A stretch of DNA of 64,000 nucleotides from an uncultured Erysipelotrichaceae bacterium. Lineage in GTDB: Bacteria; Bacillota_I; Bacilli_A; Erysipelotrichales; Erysipelotrichaceae. Of this stretch, positions 15,200-22,555 are shown in pieces. Under the pieces are notes generated by a model. It made no database searches and was not told where the DNA came from. It saw only the letters and a list, made by a program, of their open reading frames with translations. Position 1 is the first letter of the stretch; each line of letters opens with the position of its first letter. The translations under genes and the position numbers were made by a program. Where the stretch lies: assembly GCA_947036815.1 (NCBI GenBank), contig CAMQRS010000003.1, forward strand, positions 1 to 64,000. Direction: 5' to 3'.

Positions 15200-15691
15200 A
15201 TGAAAAGCAAAAATAAAATTTTAATTTTACTATTTAGTTTTGGTTTAATAGTGGATCAATTAACTAAGTACTATATATCTAATTACATGGAGTTATATGA
15301 GAGTATTCCCATTATTCCTGACTTCTTTAATATTACATACGTGCAGAATACTGGGGCAGCGTTTAGTATCTTAGAAGGAAGAATGATGTTCTTTTACATC
15401 GTTAGTATCATCGGATTAGTAGTATTGAGTTTCTTTTATAAAACATTACATGAATATCAATTTATCGCTAAGATAGGTGTGGTATTAATGTTTGTTGGTA
15501 CAATAGGTAATTTTATAGATCGTCTAGTCTTTCAATACGTCATTGACTTCTTAGACTTTATTATATTTGGTTTTGACTTTGCTGTCTTTAATGTAGCGGA
15601 TAGTTGTTTAGTATTAGGAATTATTATCGTATTTGTTGATGAACTATTAACAGAATTTGGAGTAACATATGGAAAAAAAATACACGATTAG
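15200..15691 (+). CDS. lspA: Lipoprotein signal peptidase (signal peptidase II)
   Basis: Membrane aspartic protease that removes signal peptides from diacylglyceryl-modified prolipoproteins. Of 163 aa, four hydrophobic segments are visible. Conserved motifs are DQLTKYYI near residue 19, YVQNTGAAFS near 49, the first catalytic Asp in FIDRL (D107), and the second in FNVADSCL (D134). The RBS AGGAG lies upstream. The last 23 nt overlap rluD, the classic lspA-rluD pairing. Candidate substrate in the window: the lipoprotein at 12.9 kb. Confidence 0.96.
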   Translation: MKSKNKILILLFSFGLIVDQLTKYYISNYMELYESIPIIPDFFNITYVQNTGAAFSILEGRMMFFYIVSIIGLVVLSFFYKTLHEYQFIAKIGVVLMFVGTIGNFIDRLVFQYVIDFLDFIIFGFDFAVFNVADSCLVLGIIIVFVDELLTEFGVTYGKKIHD

Positions 15692-16574
15692 TAAAGAGTT
15701 TGAGTTTATAAGAATAGATAAATTTTTAGATGAGCACGAAGAATTTTCAAGAAGTAGAATACAAAACTTGATTAAAGATGGGAAAATTTTAGTGAATGGC
15801 GCATCTACAAAAGCAAATTATAAAATAAAAGTTGATGACATCATTGAAATCGCTAAAATTGAAATGGAAGAAACGGTTGCTAAAGCAGAAGAAATGGATT
15901 TGAATATCGTATATGAAGATGAAGATGTCATTGTCATTAATAAAGATAAAGGTATTGTAGTACATCCAGCACCTGGAAGTATGCATCATACTTTAGTAAA
16001 TGGATTGCTACATCATTGTAAAGACTTAAGTGGAATCAATGGGGTATTACGTCCTGGAATAGTGCATAGAATAGATAAAGATACGACAGGGTTATTAATC
16101 GTAGCTAAAAATGATGTTGCTCATATTTCATTGAGTGAACAGTTACAAAAGAAAAGTGTCTCTAGAAAATATTATGCATTAGTGCATGGTGTTATTGAAC
16201 ATGAATTTGCAACTATTGATGCACCTATTGGTAGAGATGTAAAAGATAGACAAAAAATGGGTGTTACAGCTAAAAATTCAAGAGATGCAATTACTCACTT
16301 TAAAGTTGTAGAAAGATTTCATGATTATACATTGGTAGAATGTCGCTTGGAAACAGGAAGAACTCACCAAATTAGAGTGCATATGCAATATATTAAACAT
16401 CCAGTAGTGGGAGATGAAAAATATTCATATCGTAAAACAATGCAACTTAATGGGCAACTATTACATGCACACGAACTAATCTTCATTCATCCAAGAACGG
16501 GTGAAGAGATTGTTGTGAATGCGCCTTTACCAGAGTTGTTTCAAAAAGTATTAAAAGAATTAAGAGATAAATAA
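15669..16574 (+). CDS. rluD: RluA/RluD-family 23S rRNA pseudouridine synthase
   Basis: 301 aa with an N-terminal S4 RNA-binding domain (RIDKFLDEHEEFSRSRIQNLI) and a RluA catalytic domain. The active-site motif HRIDKDTTGLL has its catalytic Asp near residue 135, followed by LETGRTHQIRVHM near 220. In B. subtilis the equivalent next to lspA is YlyB. It modifies uridines in 23S rRNA; the exact positions cannot be read from sequence alone. The start overlaps the lspA end, and TTGGAG provides the ribosome-binding site. Confidence 0.93.
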   Translation: MEKKYTISKEFEFIRIDKFLDEHEEFSRSRIQNLIKDGKILVNGASTKANYKIKVDDIIEIAKIEMEETVAKAEEMDLNIVYEDEDVIVINKDKGIVVHPAPGSMHHTLVNGLLHHCKDLSGINGVLRPGIVHRIDKDTTGLLIVAKNDVAHISLSEQLQKKSVSRKYYALVHGVIEHEFATIDAPIGRDVKDRQKMGVTAKNSRDAITHFKVVERFHDYTLVECRLETGRTHQIRVHMQYIKHPVVGDEKYSYRKTMQLNGQLLHAHELIFIHPRTGEEIVVNAPLPELFQKVLKELRDK

Positions 16575-16593
16575 GAGAAAAATAGGTGATAAA

Positions 16594-17829
16594 ATGGAGT
16601 ATACAAATGCGGATGTATTTGTTTATCAAATAATAAATTGTTTGGTAGGTAATTACGATTATAAAATTGTGAATGTTGCTACTGCAAAAAAAGATTTGTG
16701 GCTTGCAAATCCTAAAAATGAAGCGTTTCCTATAATACGCTTGAATGCACAAGCTAGTACAAGCGCAATGTTTGAAACTGAGTATTTAACAAATATACAA
16801 AGTGCACTGAATAAAGCTATTGCTAAAGAGGGTAAAGTATTCATTATAAATACAAATGAAACTAGTACTCCATTTAATGAAGTAAGCTTCATCCAAATGG
16901 TCTTAACTCAAGATACATGTAGTGACGAAAGCATCTATACTCACTTTCCAAAACTAGCAAATGTATTACACACAGTAAACGATAACCAGCAGGAATGTGC
17001 CAAATTAACAAAGCAATTAGAATTAATACAAATGGCGAAACTTAGAAAAGAAAACAGGTTTTCTTTTAAAAAACTACCTGTTGTGTCTAGTTCAATCGCA
17101 TTTGTTATGGCAATCACATTTTTATTGTCTTCATACTTTGTATTACAACACGCTGAACATTTGTCAGTAGGACTAGTAGCCTCTGGAGCATATTATAAAT
17201 CGTTAGTACTAGAAGCGAATGAGTATTGGAGATTCATTACTATGACCTTCATTCATTCTGATTTGATTACAATTATGTTCTTCGGATTTATGTTAGTTCA
17301 AATAGGTCAACTATGTGAAAAAGAATATGGAAAACTGAAATATTTCTTAATATTTGCGAGTGCCGCATTATTTGGTAATGTGTTCCCATTTATTTTTGAT
17401 TCAAATACTTTATTTATGGGTATGGGGGCAGGAATATTTGGACTATTAGGAGCATTAATAGTATATATATTTAAAAAGAAATTATATTTAAATAAGTTGA
17501 TTGCATTACGTTTAAGTAATATTTATATATGGGTATTCGTTTGTTTCTTTATGGAGGGAATTAGTACGATTTCATTGCTTGCAGGTTTCATTTGGGGATT
17601 GTTTATGGCTGTTGTCTTATTTCCTAACAATGAATTCAAAGAGGTATCTAAGCATTTTATTTTTGGTTGTTTTGCCTTAATTGTTAGCATTCTTTATGGA
17701 GCTAGTCAAATTGACACAGCGTTGCCTAATCCTGAGTTCGATACGTATTTAATTGAACAGTATGAAACGTTAGGATTAGATGATTATGCAGAACATATAA
17801 AAAAAGCATTACATGTAGGGGAGGAATAA
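16594..17829 (+). CDS. Rhomboid-fold membrane protein lacking the catalytic dyad (YqgP-like pseudoprotease)
   Basis: 411 aa: a cytosolic N-terminal domain of about 150 residues, then about six or seven membrane segments with a rhomboid layout. Fold residues remain: the L1-loop WR (W212-R213), FIHS, and [10 protein letters not shown]. The catalytic positions do not. The GxSG motif reads GMGAGIFG, with Gly278 where Ser belongs. The TM6 His position reads Ser327 ([12 protein letters not shown]), and the HxxxN oxyanion motif is LITIMFFG. The architecture matches B. subtilis YqgP/GluP, which also works as a non-proteolytic adaptor for FtsH. The frame is intact and the RBS good, so it looks maintained rather than decaying. 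Confidence 0.8.
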
Positions 17830-17833
17830 ACGA

Positions 17834-18319
17834 ATGAAGCGTAGCGATGTATTAAGTTGGAATGAATATTTCATGGGGCTGGCTCACTTAAGTGCGCTAC
17901 GTTCCAAAGATCCTTCTACTCAAGTAGGGGCATGTATTGTTTCGCAAACAAACAGAGTAGTCGGTATTGGCTACAATGGGTTACCTAGAGGATGTGAAGA
18001 TGATACATATCCTTGGGGTAGAGATGGAGATTTTTTGGATACCAAATACCCATTTGTTGTTCATGCCGAATTGAATGCAATTTTAAATTCACATAGTGAT
18101 TTAAGAGGGTGTAGCATTTATGTTTCTTTATTTCCATGTAATGAATGTGCAAAAGCAATTATTCAATCTGGTATTAGTAAAATAGTATATGAATCAGATA
18201 AATATAAAGATCAAGATAATGTTATCGCAAGTAAAAAAATGCTGGTAAGTGCTGGAGTAGAACTAGTACAGCTAGAATATGCATTAACAATTCAAGTATC
18301 TAAAAAGGACGCTAAATAA
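17834..18319 (+). CDS. comEB: dCMP deaminase (ComEB-type)
   Basis: Zinc-dependent deaminase converting dCMP to dUMP for thymidylate synthesis, 161 aa. The zinc site is formed by HAELNAIL (His plus catalytic Glu) and PCNECAKAI (two Cys). The N-terminal motif [13 protein letters not shown] and the [11 protein letters not shown] loop are typical. GGGGAGG lies upstream, 4 nt after the rhomboid gene, suggesting one transcript. In Bacillus this gene sits in the comE locus but is dispensable for competence. The family assignment is firm. Confidence 0.94.
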
Positions 18320-18410: not shown

Positions 18411-18914
18411 ATGGAAAAAGAATGTTTATGCAATTTAGTGAAAGAATCAGAAGATAGAATAATTGAGATTTGTAACAAGTAAGCAGATAAACCTGGTTCA
18501 TTAATTAGTATTTTGAATGATGTATAAGATGATTTTAGATTTCTTCCTATTCAAGTGCAAGAACTTATTGCTCGACAAACAGGAATTTCCTTATCTGAAA
18601 TTTATGGAGTAGCAACCTTTTATTCGAAGTTTAGCTTAACTCCAACAGGTAAACATAAAGTTAGTGTTTGCATGGGAACAGCATGCTACGTTAAAGGAGT
18701 ACAATCATTAGTAGACGGTTTTGAAAGAGCGTTAGATATTAAAGTAGGAGAAACAACAGAGGATAATGAAGTTACGTTAGAATCTACTAGATGTATAGGA
18801 GCTTGTGGATTAGCGCCAGTAGTTACTGTGGATGTAGATGTATACGGAAGTGTTAAACCAGAAAATATTGCGAACATATTATCTCATTATGTAGATAAGG
18901 ATGGAGTCGAGTAA
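18411..18914 (+). pseudogene. hydC: Broken hydC: [2Fe-2S] NuoE-like subunit of bifurcating [FeFe]-hydrogenase
   Basis: The ATG at 18411 has a good RBS (AAAGGAG) and begins a NuoE/HydC-type protein. The reading frame contains TAA at 18480-18482 and again at 18525-18527. Sequence on both sides and between the stops still reads as the family (ADKPGSLISILNDV, then DDFRFLPIQVQELIARQTG). The second stop falls where homologues have Gln, so CAA to TAA is likely. The C-terminal thioredoxin-fold [2Fe-2S] domain is intact, with cysteines in VCMGTACYVKG and TRCIGACGLAP. The product would have passed electrons between HydB and HydA. Only a fragment from about 18555 could be made. Confidence 0.85.
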
Positions 18915-20801
18915 TGAATCAACAAGAACTGAAAAAGTTAAAAGAAGAACGGTATGAACAAATTAAATTAAGACTCGATAAACAAGCTTTTAACTGTAAG
19001 CATGTTATGGTTTATGGTGGTTCAGGATGTCATTCTGCTAAGTCTAAAGATATTATCGATGAATTACGTAAAATGATTCACGATGAAAAGTTAGACAATG
19101 TTGAAATAATACAAACAGGATGTTTTGGACTATGTACGAAAGGTCCTATTGTATTAGTACAACCAGATGATACGTTCTATAGTCACGTGAAGATAAAAGA
19201 TGTACATGATATTGTATCTTTACATTTAAAAGAAAATAGAATTGTTGAAAGGTTATTAGTGACAGAACCAGATGGTAAAGTGGTTGAGAAATTAGCCGAT
19301 TTATCATTCAATAAGAAACAAAAAATAGTTGTGTTAAAAAATTATGGAATCATAGATCCCGAACAAATTGATGATTATATCGCTTTAGATGGATATAAAG
19401 CATTGGAAAAATGTTTGTTTACTATACAACCTGAAGGAGTTATGAAAAACGATAAAAGATTCAGGATTAAGAGGTCGTGGTGGTGCAGGTTTCTCTACTG
19501 GATTAAAGTGGGAAATATGTGCGAAGGTCAGTGGTGATGTTAACTATGTTGCTTGTAATGCAGATGAGGGAGATCCAGGAGCATTTATGGATTGTTCATT
19601 ATTAGAAGATGATCCACATAGCGTTATTGAAGCCATGTCTATTGCAGCATATGCGACGAATTCTCAATATGGATATGTGTATGTACGTGCAGAATATCCG
19701 ATGGGAATTCATCGATTAGTTATCGCTATTGAACAAGCAAGAGAATATGGATTGTTAGGAAATCAAATTTTAGGAACTACATTTAATTTCGATTTAGAAA
19801 TTAGATACGGAGCCGGAGCCTTTGTATGTGGAGAGGAAACTGCGTTATTAAACTCAGTAGAAGGAAAGCGTGGAGAACCTAGACCAAGACCGCCATATCC
19901 TGCAGAAAAAGGATTATTCCAAAAGTCAACTCTATTAAATAATGTTGAAACTTATGGGAATATTGCTCAAATTATATTGTATGGAGCGGACTGGTATAAA
20001 GGAATGGGAACTAAACGATCTAGTGGAACTAAAGTATTTGCACTAGGTGGTAAAATAAACAATGTAGGATTACTTGAAGTACCAATGGAAATTACTTTAA
20101 AAGAAATCATATATGATATCGGAGGTGGTATTCCCGATAATAAAAAGTTTAAAGCAGTACAGACTGGGGGGCCTTCAGGATGTTGTATCCCAGAGTCTTT
20201 ATTGGATGTATCTGTCGAATATGATGAATTAATTAAAATTGGATCGATGATGGGTTCAGGTGGTTTAATTGTTATGGATGAAGATAATTGCATGATTGAT
20301 ATTGCGAAATTTTATTTAGATTTTACAGTTGATGAATCATGTGGTAAATGTTCACCATGTATGATAGGAACCAAACGATTACACCAAATTCTAGAAAAAA
20401 TCACAAAAGGCAAGGGTACAAAAGAAGTCTTAACAACGTTACACGATTTAAGTATTGCAATTAAAGATATGTCGATGTGTGGATTAGGTCAAACAGCACC
20501 TGACCCAATGTTAAGTACCTTACACTACTTTAGAGATGAATATTTAGCTCATATAGAAGTACATCATTGTCCGGTGGGAGTTTGTAAAGAATTATTGGAA
20601 TACACAATAATCGCTGACAAATGTAAAGGCTATATGTTATGTTCACGTCATTGTCCTGTTGGAGCGATTAAAGGAGCAATTAAACAGCCACACATCATTG
20701 AATTAGAAGAATGTATCAAGTGTTGGCGGTGTGTTAGTAAGTGTAAATTTAATTCGATTGTTTTAAATAAGGCAACACTTAAAGGGATCCATAATGAGTG
20801 A
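18914..20801 (+). pseudogene. hydB: Broken hydB: NuoF-like flavin/Fe-S subunit of bifurcating hydrogenase
   Basis: The start overlaps the hydC stop. The frame is coherent to about 19453, then shifts by one extra base within an A4 run (19454-19457). It resumes as DSGLRGRGGAGF, the NuoF FMN/NADH-binding motif, and stays open to 20801. The N terminus carries a [2Fe-2S] domain (SGCHSAK, TGCFGLCTKG). Further on are FVCGEETALLNS and the [4Fe-4S] motif CGKCSPCMIGTKRL. A C-terminal 2x[4Fe-4S] ferredoxin is present, but its first set reads CKGYMLCSRHCP: the second Cys has become Tyr (TAT at 20631-20633). Frameshift plus ligand loss indicates decay. Confidence 0.87.
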
Positions 20802-22555
20802 AAAAGTATCGATTACCATTAATGGTAATGTGTATGCAGTAGATAAAGAGCTTACGGTATTACAAACTGCAAAGAGTGCAAATATTAATATACCTACCTT
20901 ATGCTATTTAAAAGATATCAATGAAATTGGAGCTTGTCGTATGTGCTTAGTAGAAGTAGAGGGAATGAGAACTTTACAAGCAGCTTGTGTATTTCCTATT
21001 AGAGAAGGAATGGTTGTCTATACTAGTTCTCCAAGAGTGAGAGAAGCTAGACGTATGAATTTAGAATTAATATTATCTAATCATGAAAGAAGTTGCTTCA
21101 AGTGTACAAAAAAATCATTGTGAACTAAGAAAATTATCTGGTGAACTAGGTGTTGATGATATCCGTTTTGATATTGATGCGCCATTCGGTGAAAAAGATG
21201 ATTCAAATACTTCGATTGTTAGAAATAATGCGAAATGTATTCTATGTAGAAGGTGTGTTGTAGTATGTAAACACATTCAAAAAGTAGAAGCTATTGATGC
21301 AACTATGCGAGGAATAAATACTACGATAACGAATGCATTTAATCGTCCTACTGAAGATAACGAATGTGTTTTATGTGGACAATGTGTTAGTGTTTGTCCT
21401 ACGGGAGCATTGCGTGAAAAAAGATGTATTGATCAAGTATTTGATGAAATCTATAACCCGAAAAAACATGTTGTTGTTCAAATAGATCCAGCAGTAAGAG
21501 CGGGATTAGGAGAAGAATTTGGATTACCTATAGGAACGAATGTAACTCCTAAAATTGCAAGTGTAGCAAGAAAACTAGGATTTGATCGTGTATTTGATAC
21601 GAATACAGCTGCGGATTTAACAATTATGGAAGAAGGTAGTGAATTATTAGATAGAGTAAGTAATGGTGGGGTGTTACCGATGATTACATCTTGTAGTCCA
21701 GGTTGGATTAAATATTGAGAACATTTCTATCCAGATTTCATTCCTAATTTATCAAGTTGTAAATCACCTCATATGATGTTTGGTGCAATGTTGAAATCTT
21801 ACTATGCACAAAAAGAGGGGATTGATCCTAAGGATATTGTAGTTGTCTCAGTGATGCCATGTGTTGCTAAGAAATATGAAATTTCTCGTCCTGAGTTTGA
21901 GGTGGATGGATTACGTGATGTAGATTACGTAATTACCACTAGAGAATTCGCAGCGATGGTTAAATTTGCAAGTATCAACTTTAACTTTTTACCTGATGAA
22001 GAATTCGATGCTCCATTTGCACATGCAAATTCTGGATCAGGAGTTATTTTCGGAGTTACTGGTGGTGTAATGGAAGCTGCGATTCGTACCGTTGCAGAAA
22101 AATTAATCGGTCATGAGTTGGATTCAGTTGAATTTAGACAAGCAAGAGGTCCAAAAGGAAGTAAAGAAATCAGTGTGAATGCAGGTGAAATCACAGTAAA
22201 AGGGCTAGTAGTTAGTGGTGTGGGTAATGCCAAAGAAGTATTAGAAGTGATTAAACAAAACAAGGGAGTTTCTAAATATCATTTTATTGAAATAATGGGA
22301 TGTCCTGGTGGATGTATCATGGGTGGAGGTCAACCTATTTATGATTCTGTAGTGAGAGAACACGTTGATGTTTTTAAACTTAGATCACAAGTGTTATATA
22401 AAGCTGATGAAGCCGCACCGATTAGAAAATCACATGAAAATCCAGATGTTAAGGCATTGTATGAAGATTTCTTAGTAGAGCCGAATTCTCATAAAGCGCA
22501 TAAATATTTACATACTAGTTATGCTTCTAAAGGTCGTTTTGGGAAAATGAAATAA
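20794..22555 (+). pseudogene. hydA: Broken hydA: catalytic subunit of [FeFe]-hydrogenase
   Basis: N-terminal [2Fe-2S] domain (PTLCYLKDINEIGACRMCLV) starts at 20794. The frame is lost by one surplus A in an A7 run (21108-21114), inside the His/Cys [4Fe-4S] segment HERSCFKCTKK-NHCELRKL. A second frame runs on with two ferredoxin clusters (CILCRRCVVVC, CVLCGQCVSVCP) to an in-frame TGA at 21716-21718, where homologues commonly have Cys before EHFYPDF. The frame then continues to 22555. All four H-cluster cysteine motifs survive: TSCSPGW, LSSCKSP, VMPCVAKK and MGCPGGCIMGG. No maturation genes (hydE, hydF, hydG) are in the window. Confidence 0.9.

Follow-up and report, generated by a model that had tools for sequence, protein, structure and literature searches.

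The locus and its genes

The window, by which we mean the whole 64,000-nucleotide stretch of DNA analysed, comes from a gut-type bacterium of the family Erysipelotrichaceae, among whose named relatives are Longicatena, Dielma, Breznakia, Traorella, and Erysipelothrix; its genus is represented by this single genome, and the window copy of the gene described here has no close relative. The ORF at 16594-17829 on the plus strand starts with ATG and encodes a real, full-length rhomboid of 411 residues, placed in the superfamily by a match of residues 209 to 344 to the Pfam Rhomboid model (PF01694; 69.1 bits, E value of 6e-19, cut-off of 22.6). The gene row is tight: rluD stops at 16574, the rhomboid gene begins 20 bases later, and comEB starts at 17834, 4 bases past the rhomboid end. 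The good ribosome-binding site claimed in an earlier note on this DNA is indeed there. The features are as follows.

15200-15691, plus strand: lspA (signal peptidase II), conserved neighbour (TIGR00077; synteny)
15669-16574, plus strand: rluD-like pseudouridine synthase, conserved neighbour (TIGR00005; synteny)
16584-16589, plus strand: ribosome-binding site AGGTGA, 4 nt upstream of the ATG (sequence)
16594-17829, plus strand: putative pseudo-rhomboid gene, 411 aa, cytosolic N-terminal domain and 6+1 TM helices (ORF, Pfam, model)
16594-17073, plus strand: N-terminal soluble domain (NTD), residues 1-160, YqgP-NTD fold, slow-evolving (Foldseek match to 6r0j; branch rates)
17080-17619, plus strand: six-helix rhomboid core, residues 163-342 (model helices; GlpG match)
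17254-17283, plus strand: eroded HxxxHxxxN, with H221 kept, the second His now T226 and the Asn now F230 (alignment)
17419-17442, plus strand: GMGAGIFG, residues 276-283, replacing GxSGxxxG, with Gly278 at the catalytic Ser (alignment)
17575-17577, plus strand: Leu328, replacing the catalytic TM6 His (alignment)
17731-17811, plus strand: short C-terminal helices, residues 380-406, with conserved Y398-A399 inside (alignment, model)
17834-18319, plus strand: comEB-like dCMP deaminase, conserved neighbour (TIGR02571, E value of 4e-22, below the curated cut-off; synteny)

This gene is the only rhomboid above the Pfam cut-off in the window genome, so control of a second, active rhomboid was rejected as its role there; each of the other genomes with a recognisable dead copy (one lacking catalytic residues) likewise has a single rhomboid over the cut-off. 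The adjoining operon, at 18555-22555, encodes an NADH-dependent [FeFe] hydrogenase of group A6 (hydC/hydB/hydA) and is not intact: the N-terminal part of hydC is missing in frame, hydB and hydA are each interrupted by a frame break, and hydA also carries a TGA in frame at 21716-21718. These defects may reflect true decay, errors in the sequence, or recoding.

Catalytic residues are lost and structural residues kept

We aligned 135 distinct homologs from Erysipelotrichaceae, the window copy included; Ser and His are both present in 125. A rhomboid serine protease is recognised by a TM4 Ser within GxSG together with a TM6 His, and by HxxxHxxxN in TM2, and the window protein has neither. Gly278 occupies the Ser column, which bears out the earlier reading of GMGAGIFG in place of GxSGxxxG. 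The Ser that had been placed at the TM6 His position is in fact Ser327, one residue earlier; the position itself is Leu328. The HxxxN motif is absent, as had been noted: only the first His of HxxxHxxxN, H221, is kept, the second His being Thr226 and the Asn Phe230. A local double frameshift behind these altered motifs was rejected, since the motif segments are free of gaps and the flanking conserved residues are in frame.

Twelve columns are invariant (at least 99% identical) among 117 full-length dyad-keeping relatives, a term defined by sequence and not by activity. The window protein keeps seven of them (G198, R213, H221, E242, G276, G331, and G335) and has lost five (H226, N230, S278, H328, and N314); the complete conservation of Ser and His in the set of 117 is by construction, the set having been chosen on the dyad, whereas the invariance of H226, N230, and N314 is unselected. 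Judged from the alignment, this pattern of loss is selective and not due to chance.

No shifted dyad is visible in the window protein, TM4 to TM6 being without His and TM4 without Ser; a Ser/His pair elsewhere in the membrane core was the finding that the earlier note had named as counting against its reading. Thr226 and Ser327 do adjoin the former active-site positions, as they might in a protease whose catalytic residue is displaced or unconventional, but the dead members of the family share no conserved substitute residue, and with the bare TM4 to TM6 this makes continued proteolysis very improbable indeed. The residues present lead us to predict that the window protein does not cut.

The predicted structure combines a rhomboid core with a YqgP-type NTD

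An AlphaFold2 model of the window protein, built with 23 relatives, has a mean pLDDT of 88.7. A Foldseek search of the PDB with the model matched iRhom1/2, GlpG, and the YqgP N-terminal domain (6r0j). GlpG matches gave target-normalised TM-scores mostly of 0.69 to 0.78; 6r0j matched with a probability of 1.00, an E value of 6e-4, and a target-normalised TM-score of 0.51, and its match by sequence alone was weak. By the Foldseek match the protein carries a YqgP-type NTD, and the two comparisons together support the YqgP-like architecture proposed earlier. At the position aligned with the Mn-sensing Asp50 of YqgP the window protein has A54; the Asp is unconserved in dyad-keeping relatives too.

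A sequence profile search of the PDB placed iRhoms first and GlpG next. iRhoms are defined by an iRhom homology domain between TM1 and TM2 and by a GPx proline before the Ser position (PMC3149277). Both are absent from the window protein; membership was rejected, and the resemblance to iRhoms that the earlier note had drawn does not extend to kinship. On its sequence, we assign the window protein to the YqgP-type rhomboid pseudoproteases and not to the iRhoms.

Catalytic loss recurs at a conserved locus

A plain protein scan of the genome contigs returned no relatives; an alignment-based scan recovered them. The rhomboid profile is unmatched in 35 of the 273 family genomes. Most orthologs in the lspA-rluD-[rhomboid]-comEB slot have retained the dyad, those of Breznakia and Dielma among them. 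Copies without the catalytic residues are those of the window; of G006, G042 (Longicatena caecimuris), G013 (Longicatena sp.), G051, and G054; of G037; and of the Erysipelothrix genomes G082, G182, G188, and G173. The copy of Longicatena caecimuris DSM 29481 has Ser in place but Asn for His. In genus g40 (L290, L292, and L294; genomes G081, G039, and G106) an NTD of YqgP type is still encoded by the syntenic gene, whose membrane part the Pfam rhomboid model now fails to recognise; this looks like the end state of core loss. In each of the 14 loci with a dead or core-less copy, lspA, rluD, and comEB all lie next to the gene.

In an RpoB tree the window groups with dyad-keeping Breznakia (100/100) and G037 with dyad-keeping G026 (97/97), and the Erysipelothrix losses are nested in a genus with dyad-keeping members. 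A rhomboid tree computed under a mixture model with the catalytic columns removed agrees, with moderate support for the placement of the window (87/71). A single loss had been suggested by a first quick tree, built without a mixture model, which clustered the window with the dead copies and carried a long-branch warning; neither the mixture-model tree nor the RpoB tree supports it. Most simply read, the dyad was lost independently at least four times: in the window lineage, in the clade containing Longicatena, in G037, and in part of Erysipelothrix. Final inactivation differs even between sisters, since L016 kept Ser and lost His, while L019 kept His and lost Ser. On whether relatives share the window's substitutions, a check that the earlier note had proposed, the outcome is that some relatives are inactive too, but through different substitutions and separate losses.

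Selection has shifted from the membrane core to the NTD

Pairwise dN/dS values between genera are saturated and were set aside, leaving a single unsaturated dead pair, L090/L095 from Erysipelothrix (G182 and G188), on which the following estimate rests. Over 373 codons the pair, which carries natural Ser-to-Ala and His-to-Met replacements, shows 43.5 synonymous changes and a single amino-acid change, a dN/dS of 0.009, which is lower than that of rluD, comEB, and lspA at the same loci (0.016 to 0.033) and of 15 dyad-keeping rhomboid pairs (0.026 to 0.11).

Rates in core and NTD were compared on a fixed topology, with branch lengths fitted separately to the columns of each and the catalytic columns excluded. 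The core/NTD ratio is 0.58 (0.48-0.75) on dyad-keeping branches, 1.16 (0.74-1.90) for G037, 1.25 (1.03-1.63) for the Longicatena clade, 1.34 (0.93-1.94) for the dead Erysipelothrix lineage, and 3.07 (2.0-5.2) for the window, the most extreme case; misalignment of a fast-evolving core would bias the ratio in the same direction. Throughout 60 column bootstraps, each of the four dead lineages stayed above the ratio of the dyad-keeping branches in the same replicate; since the shift had first been noticed in pairwise figures from these very sequences, the bootstraps are not independent confirmation. Individual tips vary: five dead tips have a ratio below 1 (L016, L024, G039, L090, and L068), and among the 25 dyad-keeping tips five have a ratio of at least 0.9, with L013 (1.75) and L018 (1.40) well above 1. 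In the dead lineages, constraint has moved from the membrane core to the NTD. Together with the dN/dS of L090/L095 this points to a maintained pseudoprotease, with the window lineage represented by one genome.

Such a shift is also what would be seen if the NTD bound or sensed something cytosolic and the membrane part were a mere anchor, not a client receptor. The window branch is slow in the NTD (0.47) and fast in the core (1.44), and g40 retains the NTD with its recognisable rhomboid core gone. Yet the window protein retains the structural core residues R213, E242, G276, G331, and G335, the core dN/dS of the dead Erysipelothrix pair is also low (0.02), and the YqgP NTD works together with the membrane domain (PMC7231995). 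We regard a function of the NTD alone as rather unlikely.

The fast core, the 35 genomes without a profile match, and the visibly broken hydrogenase operon directly downstream would also suit a gene heading slowly for loss after its protease role ended. Against this, a random 411-codon frame at the composition of the window stays open with a probability of about 3e-16, and the window frame is intact after a very long branch; its NTD is slower than in most dyad-keeping lineages; and both the synteny of the dead or core-less loci and the dN/dS of L090/L095 argue the same way, so that slow decay is distinctly unlikely. The intact frame and the slow NTD argue for maintenance of the window copy itself. 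Among the relatives, the trees, the dN/dS of the dead pair, and the rate ratios depart from the random decay that the earlier note would have taken as refuting it.

A candidate role in handing clients to FtsH

In Bacillus subtilis, the catalytically dead mutant YqgP-S288A continues to present MgtE to FtsH, for which the NTD is required (PMC7231995). Our leading reading, to which we give an even chance, is that the window protein is a YqgP-type rhomboid that lost catalysis naturally and is retained for a role other than proteolysis, most likely the hand-over of clients to FtsH. The cytosolic NTD and the rhomboid membrane bundle would capture particular membrane-protein clients, which would then be passed to the membrane AAA protease FtsH, as YqgP-S288A does in B. 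subtilis. Both the FtsH link and the existence of a client are proposed here by analogy with that mutant. FtsH turned up in every one of the 15 genomes that we checked, of which 14 carry dead or core-less copies; the other is G087, where a contig end truncates the copy. This is weak evidence for an adaptor, because FtsH is nearly universal.

The client appears not to be the Mg/Mn transporter suggested earlier. MgtE was not found in G051, G087, or G054 and was marginal in G042 (E value of 8e-4), and no Erysipelothrix genome was among the matches listed. MgtE was therefore rejected as a general client; since several dead-copy genomes are without it and Asp50 is unconserved, both the client and the signal must differ from those of YqgP.

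The adaptor role of YqgP requires an unobstructed active site, and its NTD acts jointly with the membrane domain (PMC7231995); against the first requirement stand the fast window core and the barely kept g40 core, which an NTD held by an anchor would explain equally well. A Staphylococcus aureus YqgP homolog is, as cited in PMC7231995, a regulatory component of LytH whose dependence on proteolysis is unknown. The active-site requirement and the regulation of LytH keep the anchor-only and partner-activation models as candidates. Under the latter, the dead rhomboid would stably bind and activate another membrane enzyme instead of feeding FtsH, as iRhom2 does for ADAM17 and as is reported for ActH/Rbd of S. 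aureus and the amidase LytH; iRhoms are moreover the top PDB matches by both profile and fold. The neighbours of the gene are, however, housekeeping genes with no candidate partner enzyme among them, and we consider partner activation quite improbable.

Significance and comparison with known rhomboids

Derlins and iRhoms are central in eukaryotes, and their rise from proteases is an open question. A protease-independent adaptor function in bacteria has been proposed as a precursor of pseudoproteases, on the basis of the laboratory S288A mutant (PMC7231995). The literature that we searched, which covers derlins, iRhoms, the dual role of YqgP, and bacterial rhomboid proteases and takes in little of the subscription journals, yielded no account of a bacterial lineage of rhomboid pseudoproteases. 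We tentatively propose, at a little under an even chance, that a class of such proteins has evolved repeatedly in Erysipelotrichaceae, with at least four losses in one YqgP-type ortholog and selection shifted to the NTD each time. If true, the adaptor function that YqgP has without proteolysis would be sufficient alone, and bacteria would offer a parallel to how derlins and iRhoms arose. Nature would have separated protease from adaptor several times and kept the proteins, including the Ser-to-Ala, His-to-Met copy of Erysipelothrix. Separate losses within one bacterial family suggest that the useful job of the protein is not cutting, and what the non-cutting role of a rhomboid is, and which part of the protein carries it, become directly testable questions.

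The likeness to derlins, the rhomboid pseudoproteases of ERAD, is one of concept only, that of a dead rhomboid passing membrane proteins to an AAA machine; the window protein is bacterial, its partner would be FtsH and not p97, and no derlin was among its sequence-profile or fold matches. With iRhom1 and iRhom2, the metazoan inactive rhomboids, it shares a dead rhomboid fold, but it has a short loop in the model in place of the iRhom homology domain, GMG in place of the GPx proline, an unrelated N-terminal domain, and a separate bacterial origin. GlpG, a bacterial rhomboid protease, has the same six-helix core, whereas in the window protein the dyad and HxxxN are replaced and the N-terminal domain is different. 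YqgP of B. subtilis has the rhomboid core, the same NTD fold, and the 6+1 TM layout. Its C-terminal domain is larger and of TPR type. Unlike YqgP, a competent protease, the window protein lacks Ser, His, HxxxN, and the Mn-hotspot Asp50, ends in short helices, and is encoded between rluD and comEB.
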